Of a DNA stretch of 64,000 nt, positions 791 through 59,487 are shown piece after piece (position 1 is the first letter of the stretch; each line of letters begins with the position of its first letter). The notes under the pieces were generated by a model. The model saw nothing but the letters and a program-made list of their open reading frames with translations, searched no databases and was not told the origin of the DNA. The position numbers and the translations under genes are program-made. Source of the DNA: Petrosia ficiformis (taxonomy: Eukaryota; Porifera; Demospongiae; Haplosclerida; Petrosiidae); contig OX345647.1 of the NCBI GenBank assembly GCA_947044365.1, positions 6,049,114 through 6,113,113 on the forward strand, written 5' to 3'.

Positions 791-865
791 TCTCACATGC
801 AATTAATTATAAAAAATATTAATAGTTATTATTATAATTATGGGTGGGTCATCTTTAAGAATAAA

Positions 866-2410
866 ATGGCTGATTGGAGGTTGCCTTTTTCGCACGTGGA
901 CAATAACAGTCGAATTAGGAGAGCCAGAAGTAGAAGTCCTCAAAGAGAAAGAATATGGCCTGTTCAACGAGGATATGATAGAGAATATCCTTCAACTTCA
1001 TGGAGTTCGGGAGAGTCTTGGGATTATAATCAATGGAGACAACATGACTCACACTATTATCATGATGAAATTTATTACCCTGCTAGAGAATCTTATTATC
1101 CTGAAGAGAGTGAGCCGTTTTCATATGACAGAAGAGGATGGTACCCTCAACATTCTCGATTTTCAGAATATTCTCCAGGATTCTTTCAAAATGATGATGT
1201 ACCAAGACAAGCTCGACGACTTCCAAATGACATTTCTAGACAGTTGAGACGACCTCAAGATGAGACAGTTAGAGGACGACTTCCTGATGACATTCCAAGA
1301 CCGATTAGACAACTCCCTGGTGGAATTACATGGCGACAAAATTCTGATGGCATTTCACAACATGTTAAACGACCCCCTGACTACATTACACAGCAGGTTA
1401 AACGACCCCCAAACTATATTTCACAACAAGTTAAACGACCCCCTGACTACATTACACAACAGGTTAAACGACCCCCTGAAAACATTACACAGCAGGTTAA
1501 ACGACCCCCTGACAACATTCCACAACAGGTTAAACGAGTTCCTGACGACATTCCTCCTACTAGCTTGGTATCTTCTACTATAACAACTGCAAAACCATTT
1601 GAAGAAGCTGAAACTCTACCAGTTGAGGCTTTGAAGAAAAAGGAAGAAGGATTGCCTTTTGCGGAGAATAGTAATATTATTTCTGTTACATCACGTATGC
1701 GTTGCTCTTTATGTAATATTACAACCACAAGTGTAGCTCATTTAGAAAGTCATTATAAAGGCATAAAGCATCTAAAAATGGTGAGGAAAAAAGGAAATGG
1801 TGGCACTTCTGAAACTAGTGATAAAATGGTCAAAATAATGGTATGTAGTGTTTGTGGTCAGCATAGCAAATCAGATGATTTGAACATAGAATCACATGTT
1901 GAGACAGAGAGACACAAGACTGGTCTTGAGAGAAGTGTTAAACGCCATCGAAGTATTCCTGAAATGCAAGAATTGTTTGTGGAGGTTTCATTGAGTGAAA
2001 AAGATGTAGATATAGTCCTGGAATTGGAGAAGAATCCAGAGGGATATTATTGTGAGGTATGTGATATTACAATGAGAGCATATGAAGGATATCAACAACA
2101 TGTTAAAGGTCAGAAACATCACAAGCTTCTTCGTAAAGTGCTGAATTGTCAAGATGATGATGTGGAAACTCATTATTGTGATGTATGTGATATATATATT
2201 AACACAAGAGACTCGTATCAGCGTCATTTGGAAGGTCAAAAGCATAAGAAGTTGCTACGTAACAAAGATCATGAGATGGCTAGTGGATTGTATTGTGATA
2301 CATGTCGTATAGTATGTACCTCGTATGTAGATCTTGAATCACATTGCAAAGGAAAACAACACCAACAAAAATTACAAAAACAGAAACAATTTCTTTCTAA
2401 CATTTCATAA
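866..2410 (+). CDS. Five-finger C2H2 (U1/JAZ-type) protein with proline-rich repeats
   Basis: A single-exon frame of 514 aa. I chose the ATG at 866 (MADWRLPF) rather than the upstream in-frame ATG at 797, because the 23 residues between are Asn/Tyr-rich and look like translated leader. The N-terminus has an Arg/Ser-rich stretch (RRARSRSPQRER) like splicing-related proteins. Residues about 120-230 carry seven or more imperfect 11-residue repeats of the form VKRPPDYITQQ. Five zinc fingers with C-x2-C and H-x5-H spacing follow, starting RCSLCN, VCSVCG, YCEVCD, YCDVCD and YCDTCR. Fingers three and four end in the shared motif GQKHxKLLR. The stop is only 20 bp from the convergent TRIC gene. A role in RNA binding or processing is inferred from finger type and the RS-like start. 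Confidence 0.8.
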   Translation: MADWRLPFSHVDNNSRIRRARSRSPQRERIWPVQRGYDREYPSTSWSSGESWDYNQWRQHDSHYYHDEIYYPARESYYPEESEPFSYDRRGWYPQHSRFSEYSPGFFQNDDVPRQARRLPNDISRQLRRPQDETVRGRLPDDIPRPIRQLPGGITWRQNSDGISQHVKRPPDYITQQVKRPPNYISQQVKRPPDYITQQVKRPPENITQQVKRPPDNIPQQVKRVPDDIPPTSLVSSTITTAKPFEEAETLPVEALKKKEEGLPFAENSNIISVTSRMRCSLCNITTTSVAHLESHYKGIKHLKMVRKKGNGGTSETSDKMVKIMVCSVCGQHSKSDDLNIESHVETERHKTGLERSVKRHRSIPEMQELFVEVSLSEKDVDIVLELEKNPEGYYCEVCDITMRAYEGYQQHVKGQKHHKLLRKVLNCQDDDVETHYCDVCDIYINTRDSYQRHLEGQKHKKLLRNKDHEMASGLYCDTCRIVCTSYVDLESHCKGKQHQQKLQKQKQFLSNIS

Positions 2411-45010: not shown

Positions 45011-45033
45011 CAGGTTAGTAAAACATCAAGTAT

Positions 45034-45602
45034 GGGGTTAGGGGGTGTGGCTTAGGGTCTAGGGTTAAGGGTGGGGTTAGGGGGTGTGGCTTAGGGTCTA
45101 GGGTCAAGGGTGGGGTTAGGGGGTGTGGCTTAGGGTCAAGGGTGGGGTTAGGGGGTGTGGCTTAGGGTCTAGGGTCAAGGGTGGGGTTAGGGGGTGTGGC
45201 TTAGAATCTAGGGTCAAGGGTGGGGTTAGGGGGTGTGGCTTAGGATCTAGGGTCAAGGGTGGGGTTAGGGGGTGTGACTTAGGGTCTAGGGTCAAGGGTG
45301 GGGTTAGGGGGTGTGGCTTAGGGTCTAGGGTCAAGGGTGGGGTTAGGGGGTGTGGCTTAGGGTCTAGGGTCAAGGGTGGGGTTAGGGGGTGTGGCTTAGG
45401 GTCTAGGGTCAAGGGTGGGGTTAGGGGGTGTGGCTTAGGATCTAGGGTCAAGGGTGGGGTTAGGGGGTGTGGCTTAGGGTCTAGGGTCAAGGGTGGGGTT
45501 AGGGGGTGTGGCTTAGAATCTAGGGTCAAGGGTGGGGTTAGGGGGTGTGGCTTAGGGTCTAGGGTCAAGGGTGGGGTTAGGGGGTGTGGCTTAGGGTCTA
45601 GC
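45034..45602. repeat. 39-bp telomere-like minisatellite
   Basis: About 15 units of GGTGTGGCTTAGGGTCTAGG followed by GTCAAGGGTGGGGTTAGGG. It contains TTAGGG and near-TTAGGG words and strong G/C strand asymmetry. Because 39 is a multiple of three, both strands stay open (213 codons on plus, 208 on minus); neither is supported as a gene. Confidence 0.93.
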
Positions 45603-45770
45603 CCTGAGAATATGTCCCTATCCATGTCCCTTGGCCCATTTCGGGGACATATTATGTCCTTTTGCCTGAAAATGCAGGGACATACTGAAAATTCGAGGGA
45701 CATACCGTTATGTCCCTTGTGTTGTGATAAACCATGTAACATGTCCCTAAAAGTAATAATATAATGTATG
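45603..45770. repeat. Cluster 1 of GGGACATA/TATGTCCC motifs
   Basis: Within 170 bp there are about nine copies of TATGTCC(C) or its complement, in both orientations. It starts exactly where the 39-bp minisatellite stops and lies downstream (3') of the minus-strand SET-recombinase gene. Confidence 0.75.
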
Positions 45771-45889
45771 TCCTTTAGCGTTTACTAAATTTATAACCGT
45801 GTGGTTAAATCAACTTATTAATATATTCTTTTATGTTTTGTGTGTTGTTTATGGTTGCCTTTTTTATCATAAACTTTTTAATTGGCTGT

Positions 45890-45985
45890 ATAGAACCGCT
45901 TGGTGGGGCAGTGGATTGCTCTGTTTTAATGTAACTTTTCTCCATGTATGCTCATCTCGCTTGCCTATTAAAGTAGGTTAGAAGG
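45890..45985 (-). pseudogene. Diverged copy of the recombinase gene's last intron/exon boundary
   Basis: AGTGGATTGCTCTG and the following bases up to CTCATCTCGCTTGCCTATTAAAG resemble 46758-46830, where AGTGGATTGCTCTG marks the start of the last exon and CATCTCACTTACCTGTTAGC the end of the preceding one on the minus strand. It appears to be a decayed partial duplicate of the 3' part of the adjacent gene. Only about 90 bp are convincing. Confidence 0.35.
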
Positions 45986-46589
45986 CATTTATTGGTCACC
46001 AAGTATTTGGCAATTTTAAGTCTCCCTAGTAATTTGGAAGTTACTAATAAGTATGTCCCCCTTTTTTTGTTCAGGACTACAATTCATTTATTAACTGTGA
46101 TGTTTCAAGTACTTACTAAGTTAGTTTTGGCTGATTACTTGATTATTAATATATTGTTGAAAGGTGAGTATTGTTTTGGATTAAGTTAGACTTTCATATA
46201 GTTTGTATTCACTGTCATAGTTTTTTCATTACATAATCCATGTATGATTAATGCACTACTACTCCTTTACAATGTTATTAATTCTATTTTTTAAATAACA
46301 AGAAATAAACATACTTTTTGATATAACACTGATAGTAATGAAATCATGATATTTACCCATGGTATATTGATAGCATAAATGATTAGTGAATAATTATATA
46401 CTGAAATGGGTAAATGAAAAGAACTAAAATAAATAAATAAAGGGGTACATTATGTTAATAGTATATAACTAAGTAATATATAACTAAATGGATAAATGAT
46501 AGAAATGAAGTGATACATTATGTTAATAATATATAACTAAATGAGTGGAATGACTCATGATAGTAATGAAAAGAATACTTAAAGATTAC

Positions 46590-49522
46590 TTATTTAGACG
46601 TATTTAATGCACGGACTTTGTCTTGTACCTGTTTTGTTGTTTTGTCACAGGTGTAGTTGTTAAGAAAGGTGCGACATTTAGCCAAAGTAGGCGTAGATTT
46701 CTTTGACAACTCGTCTTTAAAAAATACTTCAATGGCTTCTAAATAACCACTTGGAAGTGGAGTGGATTGCTCTGTGTCAAAGAATGTGTAATTTTTTATT
46801 ATGTGTACACATCTCACTTACCTGTTAGCATTTGCATCGATTTAAATGCACTCAGAGATTGTTTCCCTCCTTTCCGAACACGATAATATAATTCTGATGT
46901 TGCAGAACTGTGGGACATCTGTCGAGACATTGCCTCCATTTCAGGGTTTGATAGCACTGCTCTTCCTGTTACAGCTCCAGCTTTTCGAACAGCTGTCAAG
47001 GATGGAATTCTTGTTAATCCAACTTCAATAGCGTATGCTCTTATAATGTGTGAATAGTTGTTTCTAAAGGATAGGCCATTTGCCCTAAGAAGGGCAATGT
47101 CACACTCTGCTGATGTAGCAATGTTTGGTCGTATTTCCTCGATGTAGTGATTGAAAATTGCAGAATCATCAAGAGATAAATATAAAACAGCTGGACCGTA
47201 TGTTTTAGCAGTCTTGTGATTGCTAACTATAATTTTTAGCATTGTATCTTCATCTTCCCCAACATATGTGGCTTCTGCCACTTCTTTAAGAGTCATGTTT
47301 ATAGCTGGACCTGCTCTTTGGAAATTTTTGTATCCAAAGCAGATAAATAAATATGTTGCGATAAAATTTATGTCCTCATCTGAGGACTTTCCTCTGTTTA
47401 CTATGGTCTCTACTTTAGTTTTTGCAATCTTTGAATGTATCAACTCTTTCAAAGCCTGCATATCATCATCGGTTGTGTCGACTTCACGTGCTGCCTTATC
47501 CCTTGTGTGTGTGATTTTTGCAGTTCGGAAACCTGCTTTCCAAAGACCTACTCTCTCGATTGTTTTCATCGCAGCATCACTGGTTTTGTACTTGGGAACA
47601 TCTCTCATTAAGTATCTGAGAGCAGTTTGTACCCTGTCCAATTTTGTGACAAGGCCATCAGGTCCTATGGCAGTTTTCTGGAGCTTCTCCACATACTGCT
47701 TGAGACGATCCGTGTCGAGAAGATTGTCCCATTTTAACTGTGTCGAGTCGGCAAATGCCAAATATTTCGACACATCTGTGCAAATCTGTCTAGCTTCAAC
47801 GGAGGATTTGCTGCCTCCGTCGAAGCTAGTCAGATTTTTGTAGAATGCTGCCAGTTCTTTTGTATTGTCGATGTCATAAAACTCATAACTGCGGGTTGAC
47901 CCCTTTTTTTTTTGAGCCGTGGGCACCACAATATTTTTATCGACATGTTGACTAATTTGGAAGCTTTGCTGGATGGTTAGTTGCAACGGATTTCTTTTCA
48001 TTTCACCTCTCTTTGCAACTCCTGCTTTCTTTGCTTTTGCTAATAGCTCTTTTCGGGTTGTAGTATCAGTTATTGAATGAACAGATGTTAGATGATTCGA
48101 TAGTTTTTTCAAGGCTTGTGCTTTACATCCTTCTACAGGACAGTGATAGTATTTTCTATATTTTTCAAAGTTACCTAAAGTACGGATTGATAATTTAACT
48201 CTTTCAGAGACCAGAGTGCAAAACTATGCAGGAAAATGGCTTAAATTTAAGAACAAAAATATGCCAACCCGGACCACATCAATGATAGACTGTAACACCA
48301 TGGCTATTGTGATAGCTCAAGAACAAACCATCCATGAAAGGTTAATTGAATGTAACATAATTAACTATAACCTACCTAACTGCTGTATAGTATCTTCCTC
48401 ATCCTCTTTCTCTTCAATGTCTACTTCAGTGTCTGCTTCACCTACTTTATTAGTTTGATAGTACAATATATCATAAATGCAGAGATTTACCTTTTGATTG
48501 TAACCATGGCATTTCACTTGTTGTTATGCCATAATCCCATTCTAATTCTTCATCTTCTTGTACATCCTGAATTGAGTAAATTCCAAGTCTAGATTTACCT
48601 CGGATGGTGATGGGACTGTAGATTCTTGCATTTGGATTACGACTATGGTTCATGTACAAACCATACTGATTGTAACGTCTGGTGGCATCATAAAATAAGG
48701 TCTTTCTCCCAACTTTGAAGGAAATGCTTCCAGAGGTTTCATTGTTTTTTTCATATTCTTTCAATCTTTTGTCATATTGTAATTGATTATATACCCCAGT
48801 TGTTTTATATTCGCATAGAAATGTGTGCGATGGTATAGGTTTTAAGGCAAATATGCCTCTCCCTTTACTTGTCCCCGTATCTCTAACTTCTATTGGTGCA
48901 TTGAGGTCTCTTGTGAGACCATCAATGACCTTTTCTTTTATAGTTTGGTGTTTCCTATATTAATGCATTCTAGAGTTTGTGTTACTAAAAAAGTAACTAA
49001 CCATATTCTTGTTGACTTCCTCAGTGATGTCTTTCCTTCTTCTTCACTGGAAACTGAAGAAAATGAGTTCATATTTGCTTAAAAGTCTATATCAATCTTA
49101 CAATCTTCCACACTCTCTGAAATGTCTTGAATCGAACCTACTTGTACAAGTAACATAAATTAACCTTAAAGCATATGTCATTTTACCTTCATCTGTAATA
49201 TCTTGTACTGACTCATCATCACTTGAACCTAACAGGTACATAAACTCAAACTAAATTGTATTGACAACACTTACATTCTAAATGAAGAGATGTTTCTTCT
49301 GTACAGCCTGAATTACTGTATTCTTCAGATGTTGACTTCTTGTCACTTGAATCTAACAATCAAATAAAATAAATTAATTTGTTAAAAATACTTACTTTCT
49401 AGATTCAAAAACTCAGGTAAACCTCCAACACTATATTTCTCGCAGGAAAGTGAAGATTTTGTTTTCTTCAAAACAAAGTCTTCAATGTCGGAATCACTGT
49501 CCAAGAGTCTCCTTTTGGACAT
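46590..49522 (-). CDS. SET (KMT5A-like) - C2H2 - tyrosine recombinase fusion protein, Crypton-like
   Basis: Nine exons on the minus strand: 49522-49396, 49352-49275, 49228-49187, 49137-49102, 49053-49002, 48954-48491, 48444-48376, 48174-46822 and 46771-46590. All junctions are GT/AG, the sum is 2403 nt and the frame is kept, giving 800 aa. Residues 1-110 are acidic and Ser-rich. Residues about 130-260 are a SET domain: SKGRGIFALKPIPSHTFLCE, DATRRYNQYGLYMNHSRNPN (canonical NHS) and DEELEWDYG, with the post-SET region WLQSKG like KMT5A/SET8. An acidic linker leads to a C2H2 finger (HCPVEGC ... HLTSVH). Then comes a tyrosine recombinase: Arg in KNFQRAGPAINM, Lys in SNHKTAKTYGPA, RxxR-type TAVRKAG (Thr where His is usual), and MSHSSATSELYY with His and Tyr. 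A transposon protein or a domesticated one; function is inferred. Confidence 0.8.
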
Positions 49523-50515
49523 GATGAACTCTGGATTACTCTATTGTGAGATATGAAGTGAACTAAATTTCATTATTTTACATTAAAATAACTTGTTAAT
49601 ACAAGTAGTATGAACTTTTTAAATTACGCCATTTTGTTTCACAACTCTGTCCACTTGTGACAAGTTAAGTAGTTATTCCACTGACCAATTATCAAAACAA
49701 AGACTCAAGTACTCTTTATTTTATAGCTCACTTTACTATAAAACAGACCTTTGTAAAAATGGCTACCTTACAATTAGTCAATTAGTAATACTATATAATT
49801 ACAGAAAATGGTGTTTAGTTTAAATATTAAAGAATAATGTACATATAATAGTACAATTACCAGTTAATTGTAGTTCAGAAGTTGAAAAATTCAGCAAACT
49901 TGATAGAAATCCAAAGAAATATTTTGAAGGTGTGGCATTTAAATGGAGGCTAAAATCAAATAAAGGAAGTGAAGGTATTGGAATAAAATTAGAATGCAAT
50001 AAATGGTATTTCATGTAATTTAAAATAATTTGATGCAATTGCAAAGTAGTGAATGCAAATTAGGGTAATTCAACGGAATTTGAAAATAAGGGAATGCAAA
50101 AAGTATTTCATTGTAATTCAAAAAAGTGAATTCAAGTAATTTTGACTAAGTAGAATTAGAAAATAATTGAACCTAAATTAAAGGTATTTGATGGTAATTG
50201 ATTGCAAGCAGTTACAGTTACATGATACTTCAATCAAATTAGCCAATTCTTAACAATTGAAAGTGTTTGAATGTAATTTGAAGAGAACTGAATATAATTA
50301 GAAGCTAAACAGAGGAAATTGAAGGTATCCCAATGGATTTTGAATTCAGTGAAGTAATTTAATTTAATTCAGTGTAATTTGCATTTTAAGTGTGATGCAA
50401 TGTAATTTGGCTGTATTTGAATGTAATAATTGAAAGTAATTGAAGGTCTTCAATTGTACCAAATCATTGAATGTAATTGAATGCAATTTGATGTAATTGA
50501 ATGTAATCACATCTG
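49523..50515. repeat. Non-coding region with degenerate TGAATGTAAT-type repeats
   Basis: Upstream of the minus-strand fusion gene, so it should include that gene's promoter. From about 49900 to 50515 words such as TTGAATGTAATT, TTGATGTAATTGAATG and GTAATTGAAAG recur at short spacing. The style resembles the TTAACGCA array at 44.65-45.0 kb on the other side of the gene. No open frame is supported. Confidence 0.6.
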
Positions 50516-50529
50516 AAGTATGCATACTT

Positions 50530-52080
50530 TAATTTTCTTGTGGGACATATGTGATTTCTCAAGAATGGTACTTTTTACTATGGCAGGACAACACTATTGG
50601 AATTCTCATCCCCGATGAACTCCATTGCATCATTCATTATGTGAAGGGACATATATGTCCCTATGTCCCTTTCAGAAATGAAAAAGTTTCAGAATGTTTC
50701 TATTATTGTACTGAGGAGACATCCTTTCAGGGTTAACTCCTATAGAACAATTGAAGCTATACAAATTTTCGAAGTTATATTTTTAAAATTATGTCCCTGA
50801 AATATGTCCCTTTCATTATTGTAGTAGTATGAAAATGCCCTATATAGTGCATCACTTGTAGGATGAAATTCCTACCTGTTGTGTATGGGTATGGTTTCCC
50901 AAACTTAATTTGTTTGGGGGAGGGACATATAAATTATGTCCCTATTTAGGGTTTATGGTGGGACGGAATGTACTCTCCCTGGGGTTTCACCACAGAAAAT
51001 TATAGAGAGCTCTGAAGCTTGTAAGTTGTGCAGGGCACATTTATATTGCAGGGACATATGTCCCCCTTAGGGATTTTCTCCAAATTTGGTAGGTGCAGTT
51101 GGTATTAGGAGTAGATTAAAAGGTGTGAATATTTTCTTCCAGGGTCAATGGAAAATAGGAATACCCCAAAATTCAAAAATATGAAAATTTTTTTTTCAAT
51201 GAAAATTGAAGAGTAGGAGGAGACAAGCAACATATTAAAATACCAGGCTTGTTGGAGCTTTCCTTAACGAAGTACCCCAAACAGGGACATATTTTAGGGA
51301 CATATTCCAGGGTTCTAGAATGGAGGAAGGAAGGGAAGATTAAACTATCAGGGTGTGGTTAGTAGAGATGGAGTAGCACAACTACACTGTAAATTTAAAT
51401 GCAGATCATTATGAAAATTGAGGGACATATGTCCCTTTGGGGGATTTTACAATAAGCAGTGCAATGGAATGTACTCCCACTAGAGTTTCATTACAAAAAT
51501 GTATAGAAAGTTTGGAAGCTTGTAAAGGGTTCAGGGCAAAATATTTCTGAAGGGACATATGTCCCTGTTAGGGATTTTCCCCAAATTTTGTGGGTGGAGT
51601 TGGTATTGGGGGTAGAATACATTGTAAGAAGATTTTCTTCCAGGGTCAATGGGAAGTATGGAAACCCCAAAGTTCAAAAATATGAAAAATTGTTTTTCAA
51701 TGAAAATTAAAGAATAGGAGGAGACAAGCAACACATTAAAATACCAGGCTTGTTGGACCTTTCCTTAATGGGAAACCCCAAACAGGGACATATTTTAGGG
51801 ACATATTTCAGGGTTCAGGAATGAAAGTAGGTAGAGAAGATTGCACTATCAGGGTGTGGTTAGTGGAAATGGAGTAGCACAACGCCATTACTAAATTTGC
51901 GGCAAGCATATTTGAAATTTGAGGGACATATGTCCCTTTGGGGGAAATCAACCAGATATACCAGGGAAATGAGGGAAGGTGGACAAATGTACAGGTGAAA
52001 TTTCAAGCCCTGAAATTGCCAAAAAAGTGTCCAGGGCACAAATTTTCTATCGAGGGACATAAAAGGGACATATTTTGAAT
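50530..52080. repeat. Cluster 2 of GGGACATATGTCCC palindromes
   Basis: About 25 GGGACATA or TATGTCCC words, several as full palindromes (AGGGACATATGTCCCT near 51421, 51551 and 51922). Two diverged tandem copies about 500 bp long are visible: 51040-51340 and 51540-51840 share TAGGGATTTTCTCCAAAT-type text, TTCTTCCAGGGTCAATGG and CAGGCTTGTTGGA. Open frames here are short and repeat-derived. Confidence 0.75.
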
Positions 52081-53203
52081 TTTTTCTAGTTCTACAGTTT
52101 AGGCCAGGGTTTCACTAGGGTACTTGGGGTTTGGAATGTACATGTCTAGTGTAGTGTATTCCCCAACTCATGAAGCCATACAAAATACCTTTCCTGTATA
52201 AGGCAAAAAATAATTTTCGAAAAATGACGAAGTTAAAACAACAATAACTCAAAAAGTAAGTACTGGTTTGAAAAAGTAAAAGCATTTTTGAAATGAGCAT
52301 AAAAAGAGCTTTCTAACGGTATATTTATCAATGGGTTTTGAACTAATTTAAAGTGTTTAGTCTTAAAGTGTACCTTATTCAAACTGCCCCTATTCCGCGG
52401 TCTTTGCGCGGATTAATAGGGTATTTGGGGTTCAGTGAGATAAAAGATTGGGCTTTCATTCAGTGTTGGTTGCATGTTTATAGCATCTTCACAAGCGGAG
52501 ATATTAATCGACAAACTTGAACTTATAAAAAAATTTCCATATACTTTATGTTTGAAGCTTAATAACTCCAACATCTAAAGGTCTATTGACTTGATTTTTG
52601 GAACTGAGAAAGGTCTATTTTTCTTCTAGAGATTGGCAGTGACTAGAAGTTTTAAAACCTTTTATTTTTTGAGTTATTTGAAGTTAAATGAGGTACGGTT
52701 AACACCGGAAATGGGCGGGTCAGTGCAAAGTTTAGGCATTCAAATTAATGCTCACGTGACGTAGATTACGAATCCGTTGAGACCTGGATTTGGGGAAATT
52801 TTTCTTCTCAGGTATATAGGGTTTAGGGTTTAGGGTTTAGGGACATAACATCTTCACGCAAAAAAATGGTCTTCACACACACAAAAACATTCTGTGACAG
52901 TGACAGTTAACTGAATGGAAAAGCTCACCCAAAACTAATAGTTGTATTCCTGGCTGAAAACTTGAGAAAATAAAAATTTGAATGACATCGCATCCTTCTT
53001 GACAACATCAAAAAGTGCATGATATGACTGGTGGGTTCTAAAGTGCAATGACATCGCATCCATCTTGTCAACATCAAAAAGTGCAGGTACATGACTCATG
53101 GGTTCTAAGAAAGCATGAGGTCAGAACAGTTCAACATAAATACAGGGGAAGGACAGAGCAGAGTGAGAGAGAAAAAAATGTGAAGAATACTGTGTGTGTG
53201 ATA
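52081..53203. other. Upstream region of recombinase gene 2
   Basis: No gene is seen. It has a (TTTAGGG)3-4 run at about 52826-52851, immediately followed by GGGACATAAC, and a 66-bp direct repeat (52981-53046 and 53047-53113, beginning AATGACATCGCATCC) about 90 bp before the start codon at 53204. The latter could be promoter or recombination sites. Confidence 0.55.
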
Positions 53204-55683
53204 ATGTCTGACTTACCAGATGAACCCGTCGATGTTGTAGTCCACAAACAGATTTTCCAAGGCATAAGGAGAGACGACATACACCTCATACCTTGTGGAG
53301 AGCTGATCAAAAGGTTCAAGTTGCTGGAACTATATGACAACAGTACCTTGAGTCGCAGGAGAATGAAGATGGGCATTGTCACATGCCTAGCACTGCCAGC
53401 AGAAATTTCAATTCTGAGAAAAGAAAAGATCATATCGTCAAGCACTAACAGGTGCATACTGATGGACAAAAACAGTGCAGAAAGATACATTGAAGCCATT
53501 CTCAAAAGCAGAGGGGTATCTGTTGACAGCTTGCAACAAAATGTAACGAAAGAACCCCTCCACACTGCTCCTGATCACACAACAGAAAACATGGACACAA
53601 CTGGTACTGATATTGAGCAGGCAGACATCGTATCCGAGGGCAATTCACTCCGGGAAGACCAAAGCCTTGCAGTTGAAGTCATTTCGGACTCAGAGACCGT
53701 CACACATTCGTCTCCCATCCAAAAACATCCACCAGGACCACACATTGTGATCAGCGAAGACGACGGAAGTCACACTGCAATTAATGATATGGAAGTAGTG
53801 CCTTGGATTTCTGATGTAGAAACTTCAACTAAACAAGCATCTACAAAAGGCAGCACGAGAGGCCGCAAGGGTACTCCTCCATTGCCCGAGGACCTCATGA
53901 AAGAGATCGAAGGACTGGACACTTTCTATGCAGCTCCTTTCAATCACGAGAGGAAAGGAAAGCCTCTGAGTAGTATAACGTTAAACAAAACCAAAGAACA
54001 GATACTCTGTGAGCTTTGAATTTTTTTTAGCATTTTTTTTAGAATTTTAGAAGCCTGTTGTATAACCCCCACATTAATATCCTTCTTTCTCTATTCCTTT
54101 CCAAAGATTTTTTTGAGTACTGCAAAAGAACGGAGGAAACGTTACAATTTGGCCTCGTTCTGGACAAAGCCTTGCTAGACAAATTCCTGCTATTCATGAG
54201 AGAGGAAAAAAACTCCACTCCGGGAACACTGTGTTGTTACTGTCAGGCACTCGTACGTGCAGTAAAATATGCCGACAAAGAAGAGAAAACAACACAGTTA
54301 CAAAATCTCCACAGGTACATCAGTGTCTTCCAAAAGGAGGCAGAGCTCAACAGAGATAAGTCCTGGGAGGAACTAAAAGCCAAAGGACGTTGGCTATCGT
54401 GGTAAGTATTTGTTTGTTGTTTTTTTTTTTTAGTCTGACAATCAGACTTCTGATGGGGCAATTCAGATACATGTGTTGTTATACAGCCATTCTGTTTTCG
54501 TGTAGGAAGGAAGTCTTGGAGGTCCTCGCACAGTTGAACGATGACTACAACTCGTCCACTGATTGGGAGAGGATCAAACTTTCCCGATCACTTCTTGTTG
54601 TGTTAGTGTACACGGCCATTCCTCCGGGACGTGGAAGGGAATACAGAGAATTGCACTTCAAGATTCACGAGAGTGAAATAACGGGACCTTACGAAAGCAG
54701 ATTGCACAAAAACATTTTGCACTTTTCACCTTACGAGGGGAAGGCCATAATGTACATTACCGATCACAAGACAGGACATTCAACTGGACCACAAATGATC
54801 TCTTGTCCTGATGACAGCTACTTCATGAACGTCCTGTCAGACTACCTCTTACGCTATCGCAACAAGATACCAAACAGTTCGAAATCAACCATTCTCTTTC
54901 TGGTGAGTTCCACGCACGTACATGTACATGTGTGACTGTCAACTATTTGTCTGATTTGTCGTGAGTGACACTCGCCTTGTTTCTCTCTCTCTCTCTCTCT
55001 CTCTCTAGGATGATAACGGTGGATGCTATGATTCCAAGAATTGGACTAAATACATTCAATCAATATTCTACAAGTACACGGGAGTTGGTGGAGTATCAAT
55101 ACATGCATTGCGATCGTCGTTTGTCACATTTGCCGGCAACGAATCGACGGAAGCAGTGATGGAAAGTATTGCCGTGGCAATGCGACACTCTAGAAGATAT
55201 CAGCAGGACATCTACGACAAGAGGACCATCAACGAAAGAGTGAAACCAGGTGTCCACTTTGCTTCAAAACAAGTCCTGCAAGCACTACGTCGTCCACCGC
55301 CAGCCATAGATGTAACATCACCAAAGAAAATGTGCAAAAGCTTAGAGGATATCAGTGACGAGGACTCAGATGATCCAACAAGCTCAAATGTCGTCGTTCC
55401 CGGAGAAAGTGTTGCCATGATTGCCAACGATTCAACTGAGAGATGTCCAAAGTTAATTTTTGCAAAAGTCCTTGAGATAAATGCCACAACAAAAACGGCA
55501 CTATTAAACGAATTAGTGGAGACATTTCCCGGATACTATCGTCTCAAGATCGCTTCAAACAGGTGGGAAGAAAAACTCTCTTGTTTGATTACAGGTATTG
55601 ACTTGGTGTACTCACGTGAGCACAGGGCATATGAACTCAGGACTCCTCTTGACGATATCACCCAAATACAAACACTCCAGTGA
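53204..55683 (+). CDS. Crypton-like tyrosine recombinase, four exons
   Basis: Exons 53204-54008, 54107-54401, 54506-54902 and 55009-55683 join with GT/AG introns into 2172 nt, 723 aa, with the frame preserved. I chose MSDLPDEP at 53204; an in-frame ATG at 53048 adds repeat-derived sequence. Exon 1 is a variable DNA-binding-like region (FQGIRRDDIHLIPCGELIKR) with a Ser/Thr-rich tail. Exon 2 has a SAM-like core-binding fold (DKALLDKFLLFMREEKNSTP ... YCQALVRAVKYADKEE). Exons 3-4 hold the catalytic domain: Arg in PPGRGREYRELHF, Lys in TDHKTGHSTGP, HxxR in SIHALRSSF, His in AMRHSRRYQQ and nucleophile Tyr in QDIYDKR. All residues are present, so it may be active. The HKTxxxxGP motif is shared with the fusion gene. 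The C-terminal 150 aa are of unknown function. Confidence 0.82.
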
Positions 55684-56570: not shown

Positions 56571-59487
56571 ACCTTTTCTAGCTACTAATTATATACATAC
56601 ATGTATACTATAATATAGAGTTTTGTATAAGATGCATTAATTACTATTTTAGCACCTGACAATCATTACCACTGCAACATGTATAATTATATATATATAT
56701 ATAACAGTTTCTCATAATACAGAGTGAAAATTATAGATAATTATTGTAGCTAAGTAAAATTGTATATCTCATGTCACAATTCATCATTCAGTTTTCATTT
56801 GTTATTCATTCTTTACCCCAGAATATCCACAACGAAATGCTTCTCAAATATTTCCATTATTAATAAAGATTCTGGAATTATCGAGTACTCTACCGGTTGA
56901 CCATGAATTCATGTGTCATCTTGTAGAAAATTTGTCTGCTAGTGTACAAGTATTAAGAGGTGAGCCTAACACTAGCAATGGAAGTAGAACTGGTACAAGT
57001 AGCTCCACCAGCATCATACCCTCTTCCGTGAGAAAGTCAATGCCTAGCTCTGTGCCTGTACCATCAAATTCTAGGTCTGCATTGTCTAACTCAGCATTAC
57101 CTACGACTAGTCGTAGGAGAGCACGTGATGATGGGGAAGAGGGTTCTAGTGGGCATTCTAATCGGCCAAAGCGTCGTAGAATGAGAAGTGATGCCATTTC
57201 AAATGCTGGTGGACAGTCTACACGTACCACTAGGTCTGTTGACAGTGACATTTGTGCAATTAAGAATGTCACCATTCCATCTACATGGAAACCCGAATGT
57301 CCAGAAAAAAAGGGACATCTTTTGATAAGGGTGACAGAATGTGCTTCTGAAAACTCTGATATTCCAGGAGCTGTTGGAATTAAACACGACCTTCCAGCTG
57401 TGACTAACCCGACAAACGTCACTGCTGTTAGGGAAGAATTGGATAAGCTATACAATGCTGCTTCATCCAAAGTGGTTCGGTATTCTATGCTAAAAAATCA
57501 GTGTGACGTACAATGTTACTATGGCATAGGTAGAGTCATGAATGAGTTGATAAACAAGTCTGCACATCTACACAGTTTTATCAACAGGGCTAAATACGGA
57601 GAATCATATCAACCACACCCTACAGACCCCAATTTATTACAGTTGTGCAGTAAGCCAACAACTGTAGTAAGTATTGCAGAGGGTGACGTTAGCATTCTCG
57701 ATAAGCTGGCAGGACACTGCATGAAACGCAGGAAAACAGATGTACTGAGTTCACTGGGCGGGTGTGTAACACCTGACTGTCAACTCTGTCCCACGCTGAA
57801 GCGTAGATGGGAACAAACTGGTGTACTTCGGTACCACACCGAAGAGACATGCCAGTCTGGTAATGTAGCCATGTGTGCGGCATCAATGAAGTACAAGAAC
57901 ACTAGCAAGTCTTCGCTTCATGAATGTCTATTATTTGCTCGATTGTGTCCTCCCACCACCAAGCTTGCCAAAGGTGTTTGTGGTATTCCAGCTAGTGTCA
58001 TTGTAAAAGATCTGGTAGATCTGTGCAGGCTTGGGACACAGAGTGACCGAATGTACCTGTGTCGTGATATGGACTTTGTAATAAACGGTGGAAATGATGC
58101 TCTCAGTGCCATCCATTTTGTGGATGGGGACTCAGGGTTTATTGTGACAGACAAATTTGCAGATCTGCAAAAGTATAGCCAATATGGCAGTGCAGTGCAT
58201 TTCACAAATGGTGTTTCTGAAACATGGATTCCATTTCGTGAAGCATTTCACGATGCTGTTGAAATATCCCATAAATTTGTGGTGTCAGAGCATCCTTCAT
58301 GTAGGCACCCAATTAGTCATGACCTCGGCAGCGTAGGACACTGGAGTGCAATGGCTACACTCCACTCAGCTAAAAAGGTGTACGTACATGTAGTGGACGA
58401 CAAAAGCATTCATCTACCTGACGGTCGTCTCATTGTTACAATCATTGTCCAAAGAGAGAATGATCTGTGGGAGCCTTTAGCCTTGCAGGTTATCAGAAAT
58501 GGTGTGTCCTTCTTGACAGAAGAAGGACGCAAGGAAGCACCAAGTGAGTACAAAGTTGCTGAGGTGTTTGCAGAAAAAAATGGGAAAGGCTTGTATGCCA
58601 TTCCAAAACACCTCCTCGAGTTTACTGATGAGCCTTTAAATGACAAGAAACAAATAGAAATGTGTAAGTTTACCCAATGCCTAAAAGCAAATCATGCTAC
58701 AAAATGTAGATTTGCTGACTGTATGCCATGGAAACTTCGTAGTTTACATTTGGATTTTAATCAGAAACAACTGATTGTCTGTCATAATAGCCAGCAGTTG
58801 CATGTGACTAGATCTAAAGCCAACATTCACCAGTCCATGGTGTTTGTGGCTGAAAGTACCATTCCTAATGCAGGATGTGGTCTTTTCTTAAGACCACATA
58901 GTACTGAAATGTACTTCAGAGCTAGGGATACTCTCTGCTTGTACAGCAGAGAGACCCTGACAGAAGAGCAGATTCAAAATATTTCCAATCCAGATTACAT
59001 ACTAGATGTACGTGACTCAATGTTTGTAGATGCAAGTGTGTTTCATGGGTGGAATTTGGGTCGGTTTGTTAATCAAGGTGGTTTACTTGAAGGGCTTAAA
59101 CAGTTAGCAACTGACTTTGCCCTGGGACATTTTCAGCTCGATTCTGCTGAGAAAGTTGCTGAAAGTTTTTGCAATGTTATTTATTCACAGAAGGGAAACA
59201 CAGTTGTGATAAATGTGAAGGGCAGAGTCCATTGTAACACTAACAACACTGCAAAAGAGCTTTTTGTTAACTATGGTCTGCATAATTACTGGATGAATTA
59301 TATATCAGGGAAAGACAGTGCTTCAATGGATCTGGAGAGTAGAGACGAATTGTCTCAGCTTGTGAGATTCATTGTTGCCACTAATAAACGTAGTGGTCAT
59401 TTGGAGCTTAAACACGCTTATAGTGATGCTCAGGTAGAACAACTTGTTCATATGTGTCCAAGTGTCTGCCCTGTGCAATGTACATGA
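56283..59487 (+). CDS. Large protein with divergent C-terminal SET domain, paired with recombinase gene 2
   Basis: Exon 1 (56283-56322, MDTSMESFKRVIE) joins in frame to exon 2 (56822-59487), giving 901 aa. The long uninterrupted exon could be read from an ATG at 56911, but the frame is open back to a good acceptor (TTTACCCCAG), supporting the two-exon model. The N-terminal third is Ser/Arg-rich with a nuclear-signal-like stretch (RPKRRRMR). A Cys-rich part follows (CVTPDCQLCP ... EETCQSGNVAMC). The last 200 aa fit a SET domain: STIPNAGCGLFLRP, ILDVRDSMFVDASVFHGWNL, GRFVNQGG where active enzymes have xFxNHS, and AKELFVNYGLHNYW. The altered NHS motif makes methyltransferase activity doubtful. 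The middle 300 aa are unrecognised. A 127-bp triplicate lies just after the stop. Confidence 0.7.

Follow-up and report, generated by a model that had tools for sequence, protein, structure and literature searches.

Element A and Its Predicted Gene

The window analyzed, the final 64 kb of contig C12 in a genome of 191 Mb, contains a predicted minus-strand gene (49522..46590) that lies within a repeated unit, here called element A. Telomere-type and satellite repeats flank this element, and a second recombinase element, T2, adjoins it (Table 1). The gene is predicted to consist of nine exons with GT/AG at every border and a single open frame. The first-pass annotation had described these nine exons and the retained frame, both of which were found again, but its coding length of 2403 nt was replaced by 2400 nt, giving a product of 799 aa; the value of 2403 nt matches an alternative AG 3 bases upstream for exon 7.

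Table 1. Features of the window, and family C copies elsewhere in the genome.
Feature	Position	Strand	Basis or remark
Element A, this copy, 7,218 bp (left end 52816, right end 45599)	45599..52816	-	right/left junctions
Left (telomere-side) end, TATACCTGAGAA, joined to CCCTA of telomere-type repeat	52805..52816	-	junctions
Right (centromere-side) end, TTCTCAGGGCTA	45599..45610	-	same in 25/25 copies
Short TTTAGGG telomere-type tract, telomere side of element A	52817..52842	+	
39-bp telomere-like satellite, centromere side of element A	45026..45601	+	
Exon 1 (ATG start)	49396..49522	-	exon model with GT/AG borders
Exon 2	49275..49352	-	exon model
Exon 3	49187..49228	-	exon model
Exon 4	49102..49137	-	exon model
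Exon 5	49002..49053	-	exon model
Exon 6, SET domain	48491..48954	-	Pfam PF00856, E 3.8e-17; solved SET domains
Exon 7, acidic linker	48376..48441	-	exon model
Exon 8, C2H2 motif and tyrosine recombinase (YR)	46822..48174	-	exon model; structure-model matches
C2H2-type motif C-x4-C-x10-H-x4-H in exon 8	48077..48142	-	coordinates computed from residue numbers
Exon 8 part matching Cre/Xer recombinases	46850..47863	-	predicted model, residues 105-442
Exon 9, C-terminal tail and stop	46590..46771	-	exon model
T2, second recombinase element, probably cut by contig end	52843..64000	+	subtelomeric copies of exon piece
Family C copies	L077 C10:23500-32749; L090 C10:6863400-6869135		one adjoins terminal telomere repeats

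The splice sites and the uninterrupted frame were kept in all 25 full copies of the gene in the genome. Three diverged families of relatives (C16, C4, and C1), with SET parts 57–62% and recombinase parts about 40–53% identical, were detected in the same genome, and the order SET followed by YR was common to all four families. The acceptor of the recombinase exon fell at the same residue and in phase 1 in each of the four (proteins about 40–63% identical, borders read by eye), and the SET exon ended in phase 1 in each (also by eye, a small in-between exon in C4 being provisional). Since the phase-1 intron before the recombinase exon is conserved, one spliced gene is favored over chance. The joining of the SET domain, the C2H2 finger and the recombinase in a single predicted gene, as first proposed from the window, is therefore supported by the conserved phase in diverged families and by the intact copies. 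The SET exon and the recombinase exon are each a long open frame alone and their joining is predicted from DNA, so that they might be two separate genes side by side in the element; the shared acceptor residue and phases in four families make this improbable.

When element A was compared with family B, found on C16, pN and pS were 0.25 and 0.78 in the SET part, and 0.30 and 0.81 in the YR part, synonymous change being saturated in both. The low pN against saturated pS indicates that purifying selection acted on both parts.

The SET Domain

An HMM search of the product matched the SET exon to Pfam SET (PF00856) at E 3.8e-17, upholding the earlier assignment to this domain. The KMT5A-like type that had also been claimed was not established. 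A four-row profile of the element SETs gave about equal matches to the solved structures of SETD2 (E 3.2e-13) and KMT5A (E 1.3e-12), and the single element A sequence gave 3.1e-10 and 7.6e-8, respectively. The closest enzyme may be either SETD2 or KMT5A, and an H4K20 label would be premature. Most or all of the four aligned families retain the core motifs KGRG, NH, and DYG, the C1 copy having KGRR, and for this reason the domain is predicted to be an active lysine methyltransferase. No host KMT5A was identified among the SET matches in this genome; one candidate, a 34% match on C7, was rejected as reading by eye like an NSD-type gene.

In the C1 relatives (e.g., L029 and L030), the recombinase part carries stops, and the SET frame was open in five copies, four of them with recombinase stops. 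Another use may have preserved the SET part in C1, but pN and pS between two copies were both about 0.01.

The C2H2 Motif and the Recombinase

The Cys12, Cys17, His28, and His33 residues of the C2H2 motif were invariant in the three-row alignment A1, and the finger likely adds DNA binding, either to telomere DNA or to the element ends. The predicted model of the recombinase matched Cre (E 2.4e-5) and Xer, pointing to a Cre/Xer fold; it superposed loosely on Cre (TM-score 0.33–0.39 by model length, rmsd ~8 to 10), and its confidence was lowest, at a pLDDT of about 40, in the C-terminal part, where the catalytic His and Tyr lie. Candidate catalytic residues for the Arg, Lys, Arg, His, and Tyr landmarks reported earlier were located by motif at R575, K609, T682xxR685, H710, and Y718 or Y719 of the product. 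The usual first His of HxxR is replaced in element A by Thr (TAVR), a change also found in P0002, P0009, and P0011; of the 10 other rows, these three are the ones long enough to cover that part.

Neither DUF3504 nor a catalytic phage-integrase domain of Pfam was matched by 11 family members at E up to 1, and one member gave a weak SAM-like match (E 0.055). Pfam alone does not recognize the element A recombinase. The mobile or domesticated recombinase of the first-pass annotation, which had named Cryptons as carriers of tyrosine recombinases, is kept as what looks like a recombinase-encoding mobile element; membership in the Cryptons was not established, no Crypton-type Pfam match having appeared in the 11 members. 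The recombinase profile yielded 17 rows from the 7,998 protein database candidates scored. Eight were 99–100% identical to A or, in the case of P0002, showed full identity with the C16 copy across 530 residues; P0008 was 86% identical and eight others 37–57%. One scan each of viral contigs and of genome contigs, with records of this genome possibly excluded, returned no relative. P0001 is a metagenome protein in which a bacterial-looking start is joined to the unaltered recombinase, and it looks like a chimeric assembly.

Copies, Placement and Ends of Element A

The boundaries of element A were established from 25 right junctions and from 17 left junctions read in telomere repeats. Direct tandem copies elsewhere had a period of 8,218 bp; the element ranges from 7.2 to 8.2 kb, and the window copy is shorter because of fewer units in a 501-bp internal repeat (50965–51945). 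The exon-8 frame gave 75 matching stretches in the genome, 25 of which were full copies that are nearly identical, counts of this kind being lower bounds. None of the 25 full copies lay farther than about 87 kb from a contig end, and together they occupied 15 ends; the zone so defined represents about 2.6% of the genome (with a placeholder value for the size of C2). Every one of the 25 was on the plus strand at left contig ends and on the minus strand at right ends, so that the gene always points to the centromere side. Over 4,125 aligned bases, the 25 copies had 24 variable sites and a mean of 2.35 differences per pair, a near-identity that homologous exchange between subtelomeric ends could also explain. 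The run of adjoining perfect telomere units varied from 0 to 26 among copies.

In the direction of the gene, the right end reads TTCTCAGGG and then CTA in 25/25 copies. Beyond it, at least three perfect telomere units were found in 13 copies; four continued into the 39-bp satellite, either directly or after a single perfect unit, and eight ran into the left end of the next copy. The 25 left ends near contig ends, counted as 24 exact pattern matches and one variant on C14, followed the ...CCCTA of a telomere tract in 17 cases and formed tandem junctions in the other eight; three of the 27 left-end pattern matches were inside C1, with unrelated flanks. All 18 places matched in a pattern search for the right end plus CTANANCC were near contig ends, and a lone end on C14 was among them.

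At the tandem junction, TTCTCAGG-GCTATATA-CCTGAGAA, a perfect 8-bp inverted repeat surrounds an 8-bp spacer, and this end-to-end junction looks like a YR crossover site. The available part of Kojima and Jurka (PMC3212892) describes recombinase sites as inverted repeats of 11–13 bp around 6–8 bp. The sequence shared by both ends and the target was limited to CTA (3 bp).

Outside the gene, the frame scan of the window copy (up to base 52000, and with a 120-aa threshold beyond) detected no frame of more than 83 aa apart from satellite frames over the right end and antisense frames of 207 and 102 aa, and it gave no reverse transcriptase. The heptamer GGGACAT occurred 31 times on both strands in 45599–52816, compared with four times in window positions 1–44000, and was often palindromic. 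These are possibly arm sites of the recombinase, their number being partly raised by the 501-bp internal repeat.

The Telomere Repeat and Related Families

At the right end of C10, about 1.77 kb of terminal CCCTAAA adjoins a copy of family C, which is separated from element A by about 170 bp of repeat. The terminal repeat TTTAGGG is genuine in this genome. Among the 20 contig ends read, C10 was the one with terminal telomere repeats, and one other begins with N; most junctions therefore lie in short inner tracts. In the accessible part of TeloBase (PMC10767889), TTAGGG is the repeat listed for chordates as well as for other major groups of animals; the terminal repeats found here (C10 right end, L090) are TTTAGGG in an animal. 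That the genome belongs to an animal is indicated by its Wnt genes, with 11 matching stretches here and none in any of 14 control genomes.

Two other families showed the same placement. In family B, whose recombinase is 53% identical to that of A, the left junction was CCCTA|GATACCTG and the right one AGAAGGCCTA|AACCC. The ends of family C were CCCTA|GAGACCTGACC or CCCTA|TAGACCTGACC on the left and TAGTCAGGCCTA|AACCC on the right. Families A, B, and C use the same repeat point, with eight bases between AGG and CCTG once the ends are joined. Clear inverted arms were seen in A and C, whereas those of B were weak. Family C is a 3.6-kb relative with no frame of 100 aa or more (L090 copy) and is likely a non-autonomous partner of element A. 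In 13 kb around the C4 relative, nothing but a short TTTAGGGTTTAG piece was found, 2.1 kb downstream and in the opposite direction, and no telomere unit was present in the 3.5-kb loci read for two chromosome-internal relatives on C1. Exact placement in the telomere repeat is seen in families A, B, and C, and may not extend to the whole clade.

A short TTTAGGGTTTAG tract was also observed at C4:63148 (L075+L028+L076, offset 9648), flanked by GTGAGTTGGTTGCAAG, which resembles a T2 end, and, on the other strand, by ACATATATGAGGGCTAAACCC, which resembles the right end of A; this could be a decayed junction. Decayed relatives were observed inside the 63-Mb C1 (e.g., L029 and L030, places at 24–35 Mb). 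This contig is far longer than the others of seen size, and the relatives in its interior might mark old chromosome ends fused into it.

The Neighboring Element T2 and Other Features

T2 adjoins element A in the opposite orientation, with pieces at 54360–54935 and 55009–55683 (HALR, MRHSRRYQQDIY). The second piece was present in 28 full-length copies among 44 matching stretches (lower bounds), and all 28 were near contig ends and oriented opposite to A. The start TTTAGGG|ACATAACATC was read in all 12 loci fetched for T2. In three of these, the preceding sequence ended in ...GGTTGCATG, which presumably is the opposite end of another T2 copy, and the number of repeats between varied. BLASTP gave no usable match between the recombinase piece of T2 and the recombinase of A. 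With T2 next to A, at least two different recombinase elements form nested layers at these chromosome ends.

For a 909-aa frame in T2 (56758–59487), whose C-terminus appeared SET-like by eye, the SET reading was dropped, as neither Pfam, solved structures nor a model (mean pLDDT 34.6) supported it. Elsewhere in the window (791–2410), a 539-aa frame contains four zf-met type zinc fingers and an in-frame 33-bp repeat. The presence of telomerase in the genome is suggested by a match to the telomerase RNA-binding domain that is weak, just over the cut-off, and has two stops in frame.

Comparison With Known Systems

The Y' elements of yeast form subtelomeric tandem blocks with telomere repeat between them and carry a helicase gene, with no recombinase and no site-specific ends; element A resembles them in its subtelomeric tandem blocks, but has a recombinase and site-specific ends. 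SETMAR, a single domesticated primate gene, is a fusion of SET to a Mariner DDE transposase. The element A product likewise combines SET with a transposition enzyme, which in this case is a tyrosine recombinase. The transposases of HarbingerS and MuDR are also of the DDE type.

Transposon-borne SET histone methyltransferase genes are known from these last two groups, HarbingerS and MuDR having taken up SET genes in an oomycete (cited in the part of PMC12730594 available). They differ from element A in their transposase types, and that part of the article describes no telomere targeting. A likeness in domains and target was found in crustacean endogenous nimaviruses. According to the accessible text of PMC10871703, their insertion target is the TAACC telomere repeat, and they have in common a recombinase family, typically with C2H2. 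Its authors find no close relation of these recombinases to Cryptons and DIRS. In neither system were all key catalytic residues found, with five of seven in the nimaviral YRs and the first His replaced in element A. The nimaviral YRs, however, reside in viral genomes of hundreds of kb, whereas element A is an 8.2-kb unit with a single gene and a SET domain, located in TTTAGGG repeats.

Cryptons, proposed to move as circles (PMC3212892, as available), are recombinase-only DNA elements like element A, and CryptonV, cited as microsatellite-specific in the consulted part of PMC8869645, resembles it in repeat-specific insertion. The Crypton termini share direct repeats of 4 or 6 bp, whereas the ends of element A share only CTA. 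Element A further differs in the inverted arms at its joined ends, in TxxR at the position of HxxR, and in its SET and C2H2 domains. The Terminons of rotifers (PMC6431247, seen in part) are telomeric Penelope-like retroelements that also live at telomere repeats, in head-to-tail arrays and with extra genes. Both these and the TRAS-type telomeric retrotransposons (cited in the part of PMC8869645 consulted) are reverse-transcriptase elements, in contrast to the DNA recombinase of element A.

The first-pass annotation knew of no described SET-recombinase fusion, and in a full-text literature search covering few subscription papers neither a SET-recombinase element nor a compact telomere-targeting recombinase transposon was recognized; no such element is described in the available parts of PMC12506042, PMC9406493, PMC7599744, and PMC10767889. 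From the sources as available, telomere-targeting C2H2-YRs (nimaviruses) and SET genes in transposons were already known, and none of these sources showed SET combined with YR.

Proposed Mechanism and Alternative Explanations

The explanation that accounts best for these data, and which is considered quite probable from the sequence evidence, is that the gene is the one gene of a likely mobile telomere-targeting YR transposon of about 8.2 kb, which has its own SET domain and would insert via a circle at CCCTA|AA. The recombinase would join or copy the element ends as a circle carrying the joined-end sequence TTCTCAGGGCTATATACCTGAGAA. This circle would then recombine with the repeat, inserting at the CTA in CCCTAAA. 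As judged from the junctions, the recombinase would recognize the inverted arms TTCTCAGG and CCTGAGAA and exchange strands around the shared CTA. The CTA in CCCTAAA is not symmetrical and would set a single orientation, which is the reason proposed for the one orientation of the copies. No excised circle or empty site was found among the loci read.

An unlikely alternative is a Y'-like subtelomeric block, that is, an old immobile insertion copied between ends by homologous recombination in the telomere and satellite repeats. Such copying would fit the 25/25 full copies being subtelomeric, near identical and often tandem, as well as the arrays on C5 and C6, where telomere repeats lie between neighboring copies as crossing over would leave them. 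By contrast, eight of the 25 right junctions are end to end with no telomere repeat, and these direct tandem junctions fit the junction of a circle and are not expected from exchange between telomere tracts. The similar end geometry of families B and C at the same repeat point, and the frames intact in 25/25 copies, also speak against it.

That the locus is instead a domesticated host gene, maintaining or capping telomeres by recombination, is very unlikely. Intact copies at 15 ends and the sharing of these ends by two recombinase elements, A and T2, with no usable similarity would agree with such a function, but the interior of C1 has decayed relatives that resemble relics of transposons, one end has about 1.77 kb of plain telomere repeat, and the genome contains the telomerase RNA-binding domain match mentioned above, weak and interrupted as it is. 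Even less credit is given to a fragment of an endogenous large DNA virus. The telomere-inserting nimaviruses, whose published recombinases also typically have a C2H2 domain (PMC10871703, in the part available), would be an example; against this, element A repeats as a unit of 8.2 kb that ends precisely on either side, the window copy has no other long frame (bar the antisense frames and the satellite frames over the right end), and majanivirus genomes were published at 278 to 401 kb, as far as the accessible text goes.

For the SET domain of the proposed transposon, methylation of histones at the landing site would enable the recombinase to work and would keep the element expressed in silent end chromatin. 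This role, opening the site and sustaining expression, is put forward tentatively; escape from silencing alone, or a non-histone protein target, would be alternatives. The first-pass annotation's suggestion that the SET domain might mark insertion or excision sites or evade silencing likewise stays a conjecture.

Implications

Beyond the gene described in the first-pass annotation, the main point is an element found at one exact position of the telomere repeat in 25 near-identical copies. As a likely compact transposon with exact ends and a crossover-like junction, it allows the targeting rule to be tested directly. If one protein does combine a histone methyltransferase with an integrase, this would be a natural coupling of insertion to chromatin writing. 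It is conceivable, if somewhat doubtful, that SET opens telomere chromatin for insertion and that layers of A, B, C, and T2 are the standard building material of the ends. Together with T2, element A would represent animal chromosome ends built from nested recombinase elements.
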